From: Hwangdonia lutea
GTDB taxonomy: Bacteria > Bacteroidota > Bacteroidia > Flavobacteriales > Flavobacteriaceae
Assembly (NCBI RefSeq): GCF_032814565.1
Contig: NZ_CP136521.1
Coordinates: 434,001 to 498,000, forward strand
DNA: 64,000 bases
Direction: 5' to 3'
This document shows positions 28,135 to 30,233 of this stretch, piece by piece. The notes under the pieces are model-generated. The model saw only the letters and a program-made list of their open reading frames with translations. It ran no database searches and was not told where the DNA came from. The translations under genes were made by a program, and so were the position numbers. Each line of letters starts with the position of its first letter. The stretch's first letter is position 1.

Positions 28135-28809
28135 ATGAGCATCCAAAAAAACCTTAATAATTTAAAATCAAAATTACCTGAACACGTCACTTTGGTTGCC
28201 GTTTCCAAAACCAAGCCCATTAGCGATTTAATGGAAGCTTATAATGCAGGGCAACGCATTTTTGGAGAGAACAAAATCCAAGAAATGGTAGATAAACACG
28301 AAGACATGCCCGACGATGTTAAGTGGCACATGATTGGGCATGTACAGCGCAATAAGGTGAAACACATGGCGGCGTTTGTAAGTTTAATTCATGGCGTTGA
28401 CAATCTTAAACTGTTAAAGGAAATAAACAAACAAGCCAAAAAACACGATAGAATTATAGATTGTTTACTTCAAATAAAAATTGCATCAGAAGATTCTAAA
28501 TTTGGCATGTCGCCAGATGAAGCTTCAGAAATTCTACAATCGAATGCCTTTTCAGAATTGCAACATATAAAAGTTATTGGCGTTATGGGAATGGCAACGT
28601 TTACTAATGATATGAATCAAATAGAAAACGAATTCAAATTATTAAAAACGACGTTTGACAATTTAAAAGAAGTGCAAACTGCAAACTGCAAACTGCAAAT
28701 TATTTCCATGGGCATGAGTGGCGATTACGAGTTGGCTATAGATTGCGGTAGTAATATGATTCGCGTGGGAAGTAGTATATTTGGCGAACGGAATTACAGT
28801 AAGCAGTAA
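28135..28809 (+). CDS. YggS/PROSC-type pyridoxal-phosphate homeostasis protein
   Basis: This 224-residue single-domain PLP-binding TIM-barrel has the PLP lysine Lys25 in V-A-V-S-K-T-K-P and the family motifs F-G-E-N-K-I-Q-E, W-H-M-I-G-H-V-Q-R-N-K and S-M-G-M-S-G-D-Y. A run of three tandem GCAAACT copies (28674-28694) lies inside the coding region and encodes the linker before the S-M-G-M-S motif. A change in copy number would shift the frame and delete that motif. Confidence 0.94.
   Translation: MSIQKNLNNLKSKLPEHVTLVAVSKTKPISDLMEAYNAGQRIFGENKIQEMVDKHEDMPDDVKWHMIGHVQRNKVKHMAAFVSLIHGVDNLKLLKEINKQAKKHDRIIDCLLQIKIASEDSKFGMSPDEASEILQSNAFSELQHIKVIGVMGMATFTNDMNQIENEFKLLKTTFDNLKEVQTANCKLQIISMGMSGDYELAIDCGSNMIRVGSSIFGERNYSKQ
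28674..28699 (+). repeat. heptanucleotide tandem repeat inside the yggS-like gene
   Basis: There are three full copies of GCAAACT followed by a partial fourth (GCAAA). Seven is not a multiple of three, so slippage would cause a frameshift. Confidence 0.85.
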
Positions 28810-28827: not shown

Positions 28828-28869
28828 TTTTAACTTTTAACTTTTAACTTTTAACTTTTAACTTTTAAC
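28828..28869 (+). repeat. heptanucleotide tandem repeat before the exonuclease gene
   Basis: Six tandem copies of TTTTAAC end three bases before the putative ATT start codon at 28872. The repeat puts a TAA stop in every frame within each three copies, so no upstream frame can read through it. Confidence 0.9.
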
Positions 28870-28871
28870 AA

Positions 28872-30233
28872 ATTTACGCAATATTAGACATAGAAACTAC
28901 TGGTGGTAAGTATAACGAAGAAGGCATAACCGAAATTGCAATCTTCAAATTTGATGGCCACGAGATAGTCGATCAATTTATAAGCCTCATAAATCCCGAA
29001 CGCGAGATACAGCCTTTTGTTGTTAACCTTACAGGCATTAATAGCAACATGTTACGCAGTGCCCCCAAGTTTTACGAAGTTGCAAAACGCATTGTTGAAA
29101 TTACCGAAGGTTGTATTATCGTGGCACATAATGCGCAATTTGACAACCGCATTTTAAAAACCGAATTTAAGCGCCTCGGTTTCGATTTTGAACGAAAAAC
29201 CCTTTGTACTGTAGAATTGGCAAAAGATTTAATTCCTGGACAAAGCTCTTATAGTTTGGGCAAGTTGGTACGCTCGCTTGGTATTCCGGTTACCGACAGG
29301 CATCGAGCTTCCGGCGATGCCATGGCCACGGTTAAATTGTTTAAAATACTTTTGGAGAAAGACACTTCAAAAAACATCATCCAACAATCCGTACGCTTAA
29401 ACCCCAAACATCAATTAGAACCTCGCCACATCGATATTATAGAGCAAATGCCATCAGAGACTGGTGTTTACTACATTCACAAGGCCAATGGCGACATAAT
29501 TTACATCGGAAAAAGCAATAATATAAAAAAGCGCATCAATCAACATTTTACAAATACCAATCAAAAATCCAAAAAAATACAGCAAAACGTTGCCACGGTA
29601 ACTTACGAAACCACGGGCAGTGAATTGGTGGCACTTTTAAAGGAAAGCGAAGCCATTAAACGCAACAAACCCATATACAACAGAGCGTTACGGCGCAACG
29701 TTTTTACACACGCCCTGTATAGTTTTAAGGATGAAAACGGGTATATTAATTTAAAAATTGATGATGCCGACGGCAGAAAAAAGGCCATAACCACATTTAG
29801 CAACCGCCAAAGCGGAAAAAGCTTTATCACAAAAGCGGTTGAAGATTTCAACTTATGCCAGAAACTAACAGGACTTTACAAAACCAAAACCAGTTGTTTT
29901 AACTACGATATTAAAACCTGTAACGGGGCTTGTATTGAAAAGGAACCGGCCGAAATTTACAATAAACGCGTACAGGCACTAATAGATAAAAACAGTTATC
30001 ACAATAAAAACATGGTGATTATTGATAAAGGTCGAGCGGTTGATGAACGCAGTGCCATCCTAATAGAAAATGGGGTTTTTAAAGGTTTGGGCTATTTTAA
30101 TTTGAATTACCAAATAAACAATATTGAGATTTTAGAATCCATTATTACGCCCATGGACAGCAATAGAGATACCCAACACATCATTCAAAATTATCTCAGA
30201 AAAAATAAACGGTTAAAAATTATTACGCTTTAA
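28872..30233 (+). CDS. DEDDh exonuclease / GIY-YIG nuclease fusion (PolC-epsilon/UvrC-like), apparent ATT start
   Basis: The protein is about 453 residues if started at ATT (28872). The first 160 residues form a DEDDh 3'-5' exonuclease: D-I-E-T-T-G at 6-11, H-N-A-Q-F-D and H-R-A-S-G-D. A GIY-YIG domain (about 190-275: G-V-Y-Y-I-H and I-Y-I-G-K-S) and a UvrC/Cho-like Cys-rich segment follow. Starting at the first ATG (29049) would remove the exonuclease active site. The preceding in-frame codons up to the TAA at 28866 offer no ATG, GTG or TTG, so ATT is the only candidate that keeps the domain whole; otherwise the start codon has mutated. Confidence 0.88.
   Translation: MYAILDIETTGGKYNEEGITEIAIFKFDGHEIVDQFISLINPEREIQPFVVNLTGINSNMLRSAPKFYEVAKRIVEITEGCIIVAHNAQFDNRILKTEFKRLGFDFERKTLCTVELAKDLIPGQSSYSLGKLVRSLGIPVTDRHRASGDAMATVKLFKILLEKDTSKNIIQQSVRLNPKHQLEPRHIDIIEQMPSETGVYYIHKANGDIIYIGKSNNIKKRINQHFTNTNQKSKKIQQNVATVTYETTGSELVALLKESEAIKRNKPIYNRALRRNVFTHALYSFKDENGYINLKIDDADGRKKAITTFSNRQSGKSFITKAVEDFNLCQKLTGLYKTKTSCFNYDIKTCNGACIEKEPAEIYNKRVQALIDKNSYHNKNMVIIDKGRAVDERSAILIENGVFKGLGYFNLNYQINNIEILESIITPMDSNRDTQHIIQNYLRKNKRLKIITL

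Follow-up and report, generated by a model that had tools for sequence, protein, structure and literature searches.

Translation of the exonuclease/GIY-YIG nuclease gene in the window (the entire 64,000-nucleotide stretch of Hwangdonia lutea DNA analysed here) almost certainly begins at an ATT codon. The explanation that best accounts for the observations as a whole, and that is probably correct, is that this AUU start at position 28872 is kept weak by selection and acts as a conserved translational throttle on the nuclease. A preliminary description of the sequence had given the layout of the region accurately: six TTTTAAC copies, a TAA at 28866, the ATT at 28872, an open frame thereafter and a first in-frame ATG at 29049 (Table 1). 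It had offered two readings, namely that ATT is used or that a former start codon was lost by mutation, perhaps as the repeat expanded.

Table 1 Features of the nuclease locus and its upstream neighbour (window coordinates).
Feature	Position	Strand	Remarks
yggS-family PLP protein gene, upstream neighbour	28135..28809	+	TIGR00044, 204 bits; ATG start; control gene
TTTTAAC heptanucleotide array, six copies	28828..28869	+	Exact copies; A/T-rich; TAA stops in all frames just 5′ of the start
In-frame TAA, last stop 5′ of the nuclease gene	28866..28868	+	One codon (CAA) separates TAA from ATT
ATT start codon (almost certain), exonuclease/GIY-YIG gene	28872..28874	+	Start-type codon here in 155 of 164 orthologues; TTG one codon upstream in the other nine
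Nuclease CDS, 453 amino acids plus stop	28872..30233	+	Frame open to the stop at 30233
Codons 2–9 (TAC GCA ATA TTA GAC ATA GAA ACT)	28875..28898	+	Strongest synonymous constraint in the gene
Exonuclease motif I (D-I-E), codons 6–8	28887-28895	+	Would be lost with a start at 29049
Codon 13, AAG	28908..28910	+	AAG in 39/43 first-set ATT/ATC/ATA genes; AAA is the usual codon
ATG at codon 60, first in-frame ATG/GTG/TTG	29049..29051	+	Rejected as main start

Both catalytic domains are present and intact in the predicted product. Residues 4–157 match a DEDDh exonuclease domain (Pfam PF00929, E 2e-32) and residues 198–269 match a GIY-YIG domain with UvrC/Cho-like sequence (Pfam PF01541, E 2e-10). Profile comparison likewise returns Cho and UvrC, and the structure matches are the PolC/DinG exonuclease and UvrC, with motif I aligned to the PolC/DinG structures. 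The order of a DEDDh exonuclease followed by a GIY-YIG/UvrC-like part is the same as in exonuclease/UvrC-type fusions (the NCBIfam PRK07883 group and excinuclease Cho). However, the window protein scores under every cut-off of the PRK07883 equivalogs (best 283 versus 495 bits), which indicates that the nuclease represents a separate flavobacterial branch. The host genome carries a second exonuclease/GIY-YIG copy (3117686–3119014) that is roughly 40% identical and has an ordinary ATG start; an in-frame TAA that had been flagged there is simply the natural end of the gene.

Start codons of orthologous and control genes

We collected orthologues from the genomes of relatives together with 80 named contigs, and then from 60 more, which yielded 164 distinct sequences after duplicates were removed. 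All belong to Flavobacteriaceae, a family of mostly marine bacteria, and the closest named relatives of the host genome are Gaetbulibacter, Wocania and Flaviramulus. At the position of the window's ATT, 57 orthologues carry TTG, 51 ATT, 25 ATG, 9 GTG, 8 ATC and 5 ATA. ATT is therefore the second commonest codon after TTG, and ATT, ATC or ATA (hereafter ATH) occupies the position in 64 of the 164. Genera with ATT include Gaetbulibacter, Algibacter and Lacinutrix, and Winogradskyella has ATA. The remaining nine orthologues, of an Ulvibacter type, have TTG exactly one codon upstream of the window's start position. A by-eye tally of 113 listed orthologue rows gave ATG 43, TTG 37, ATT 23, GTG 6, ATC 3 and ATA 1. 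The codons TTA, CTN, GTT and GTA never appear at the position among the 164 orthologues. Because other isoleucine, leucine and valine codons are never found there, the position is that of a start rather than of an internal codon, and its restriction to start-type codons across Flavobacteriaceae constitutes a pattern beyond chance. In the Ulvibacter-type genomes (nine loci: L092, L095, L101 and L105–L110), the old start position holds Asn or Glu codons.

An in-frame stop lies 1–22 codons 5′ of the start in the 43 ATH genomes of the first orthologue set, and 42 of these 43 have no ATG, GTG or TTG between that stop and the start. In the window, no canonical start giving the full protein occurs before codon 60. 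The ATG at 29049 is thus the first standard in-frame start, and one could suppose that translation begins there, or reads through from upstream, with the ATT being internal or untranslated. A main start at 29049 would, however, remove motif I from the protein. Furthermore, pN/pS is lower in codons 10–59 than in any other long segment compared (0.097 in ATT/ATC/ATA genomes; the other codons of the exonuclease domain have 0.167 and the rest of the gene 0.291), and this purifying selection excludes 29049 as the main start. The stops close 5′ of the ATT in nearly all genomes and the spectrum of start codons also argue against this alternative, which appears already contradicted and which we regard as very improbable.

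These results bear on two findings that, according to the preliminary description, would speak against the use of ATT. At the sequence level, we found no in-frame ATG upstream of the repeat, and initiation at 29049 is contradicted by conservation. The reading in which ATT is used agrees both with the 64 ATH orthologues and with the strong purifying selection that precedes 29049.

The start usage of two control genes is ordinary. Of 102 yggS loci from the same genomes, 97 have an ATG start, and the paralogue of about 40% identity begins with ATG in 15 of 19 cases, TTG in 4 of 19 and ATH in 0 of 19. The gap between yggS and the nuclease gene ranges from 1 to 435 bases and exceeds 80 in 5 of 44 ATH genes, which is too variable for coupling to yggS to be a requirement.

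A different picture is seen with infC, the gene for translation initiation factor IF3, whose known starts are AUU, AUA, AUC and CUG. The infC gene of the host genome (near 173604) is without ATG, GTG or TTG and aligns to an ATA start (GCC ATA GCA ATT AGA). Thus, the ribosomes of this lineage very likely use ATH starts.

Start-codon turnover and the sequence around the start

A tree of the orthologues, built without their first 15 codons, contains one clade of 92 orthologues in which the start position is ATT in 49, TTG in 30, ATC in 8, ATA in 4 and GTG in 1, with ATG in 0. Inside this clade, the codon changed between the ATH and NTG classes at least 20 times. A change from ATH to TTG takes two substitutions, and the sole single-step path via a usable start passes through ATG. 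We fitted a gain/loss model with this path through ATG on the 90-row core of the clade. A model in which ATG is gained and lost at the same rate was rejected (LR 68.9), as was loss at three times the rate of gain (LR 26.9), and the model that fits has a rate of ATG loss that exceeds the rate of gain by a factor of about 20 or more. Across the whole tree, ATG loss is only about 3 times faster than gain and 25 of 164 orthologues use ATG, which indicates that the constraint against ATG is lineage-dependent.

What is conserved at the start is the class of codon, while the codon itself turns over, and within the ATT clade the start is very probably under selection to remain weak. Independent exchanges between ATT/ATC/ATA and TTG are unusually numerous (at least 20) and ATG is not kept, so selection for weak initiation becomes measurable from sequence alone. 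That a weak start has persisted at the exact codon through these changes suggests that the cell deliberately makes little of the enzyme. The preliminary description had reasoned that an ATG at this position in close relatives would mark the window's start as mutated. This test gave the opposite result, as the codon is ATT or TTG in close relatives and ATG is confined to other lineages.

The sequence around the weak start is purged of rival start triplets. In codons 2–10, counted in any frame, ATG, GTG and TTG triplets occur 0.02 times per gene in ATH genes, whereas 1.63 are expected from synonymous shuffles; the corresponding values are 0.31 versus 1.60 in TTG genes and 0.50 versus 1.49 in ATG/GTG genes. 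Codons 2–9 of the window gene hold none in any frame. The 21 bases 5′ of the start are also depleted in start triplets (0.05 versus 0.26).

The base at −3 is T, a poor context for initiation, in 79% of ATG/GTG orthologues and A in only 6% of them; A is found at −3 in 47% of ATH genes and 60% of yggS genes. In Flavobacterium, A at −3 favours initiation (PMC6847099). The link between T at −3 and the start codon holds up after tree correction (LR 17.8) but is modest, and control columns show the test to be liberal. In our reading, either the codon or its context keeps the total strength of initiation low. Shine–Dalgarno sites are not used in the phylum of the window's genome (PMC6847099). Among ATH genes, an SD-like tetramer is present in 4 of 64 (0.8 expected), and the window has none.

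Synonymous constraint was scored in 206 columns, with Ser, Arg and Leu left out. The six most constrained columns in ATH genes are codons 7, 6, 2, 13, 3 and 4. TTG genes exhibit the same constraint at codons 7, 2, 6 and 3, and D6 is unconstrained in ATG/GTG genes. Start-triplet avoidance is enough to explain TAC2, the choices at codon 5 and most of ATA7. As a full cause of the constraint, however, it fails, because GAC6, GCA3 and AAG13 are left unexplained; GAC6, for example, is used in 98% of ATH genes versus 23% expected under such avoidance. Therefore, something else must also be selected at these codons.

One candidate is an mRNA element, made up of the start together with codons 2–13, to which a protein or a small RNA would bind and which would render initiation conditional, for example on DNA damage. 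The fact that codons 2, 3, 4, 6, 7 and 13 are the top-ranked columns is consistent with this idea. So is the behaviour of GAC6, which remains associated with weak starts once the tree is taken into account (LR 21.8, against a maximum of 14.4 among 25 control two-fold columns) and does so counter to the base-composition trend. However, the constrained segment pairs with 16S rRNA, taken from a locus in which exact matching did not locate the anti-SD motif, more weakly than its synonymous shuffles do, and the genome contains no further copy of the element even when 3 mismatches are allowed. In addition, avoidance of rival starts covers part of the constraint. We consider such an element unlikely. 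The same holds for its more specific form, in which the first 13 codons would be a dedicated regulatory RNA element that accompanies near-cognate starts only and makes this a stress-induced nuclease in a phylum without Shine–Dalgarno use.

A proposed throttle and genes with comparable starts

A simple throttle on the amount of nuclease is, in our judgement, the likely reason for the weak start. According to this proposal, translation would begin at the near-cognate AUU at 28872, which the initiator tRNA would decode at low efficiency in an A/U-rich leader devoid of a Shine–Dalgarno site, such that only small amounts of this two-nuclease DNA repair protein would be made. Excess nuclease may be harmful, by analogy with pcnB. 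Selection for a weak start is well supported, and the physiological reason is inferred.

The pcnB gene of Escherichia coli, encoding poly(A) polymerase, reportedly has an AUU start that limits its translation (Binns and Masters 2002). Both genes place AUU on a nucleic-acid enzyme, although for the window nuclease the limit on translation is our proposal, and the two differ in protein and phylum. Furthermore, the nuclease codon drifts among ATT, ATC, ATA and TTG yet stays weak, is without a Shine–Dalgarno site and is followed by strong synonymous constraint.

The weak start might instead serve as a switch that senses IF3, as in infC, with expression of the nuclease rising upon IF3 shortage or ribosome perturbation. 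ATT, ATC and ATA are the codons against which IF3 discriminates most, TTG being far better tolerated, and most relatives retain ATA at infC, a few having CTG or ATC instead. Conserved near-cognate starts are thus common to both genes, that of infC in the host genome being ATA by alignment. The two patterns differ, however. TTG, GTG and ATG are all absent from the start of infC, the genuinely IF3-regulated gene, in the 27 loci read, whereas the nuclease exchanges ATH and TTG freely, in at least 20 switches. Indeed, the nuclease start is not restricted to the codons that IF3 rejects (AUU, AUA, AUC and CUG), given the 57 + 9 orthologues with TTG and the 25 with ATG. This contrast makes IF3 sensing less likely, and we view it as distinctly improbable; the simple throttle remains the reading that we prefer.

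To our knowledge, very few bacterial genes conserve a near-cognate start as such. As in the class that includes pcnB and infC, the nuclease has no full-length AUG, GUG or UUG start, and its near-cognate start is conserved across species. Conserved non-canonical starts have also been described in Staphylococcus aureus for cvfC1 (AUU) and ccpN (AUA), which give about 10–30% of AUG expression in reporters and depend on extended Shine–Dalgarno pairing (PMC13009471). The nuclease resembles these genes in having a conserved non-canonical start but differs in lacking a strong Shine–Dalgarno site, as the scarcity of SD-like tetramers in ATH genes indicates. It also belongs to a phylum without Shine–Dalgarno use. 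Gene callers limited to ATG, GTG and TTG are expected to truncate the nuclease in many genomes, dropping its active-site motif.

The TTTTAAC array upstream of the start

The array lies two bases from the ATT, and no canonical start precedes motif I. This layout is compatible with the second reading in the preliminary description, taken one step further: an original ATG was lost during repeat expansion, and the gene would now be poorly expressed or decaying. However, the 64 orthologues with ATT, ATC or ATA are mostly without the array, the frame is intact and under purifying selection, and ATG is entirely absent from the 92-row clade. Because most ATT orthologues lack the array, which can also be present before TTG, the start was not lost by this route. 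The lost-ATG reading is already contradicted, and we give it almost no weight.

Ten orthologues (the window's and nine others), with starts that include ATT, ATC and TTG, have at least two TTTTAAC copies ahead of the start, and the junction TTTTAACAA-AT is often common to these array-bearing genes. Arrays of the same unit also occur at other sites in the genomes of several relatives. The array is thus a simple repeat, common among flavobacteria and found repeatedly at this site, rather than the cause of the ATT.

An overlapping leader open reading frame that ends in a conserved +1-frame TAG was considered and rejected, since in the window it is closed by stops within the array. Genomes differ in how widely the repeat is spread. 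Two relatives (G366 and G149) have many TTTTAAC arrays genome-wide. In the window's genome and in one other (G029), the sole array of at least three units is the one at the start of the nuclease gene, and no other site in the 3.9 Mb host genome carries such a tandem. A separate TGCAAAC array (3.9 copies, 28673–28699) falls within the yggS coding sequence, at a place where similar residues occur in relatives without an obvious insertion.
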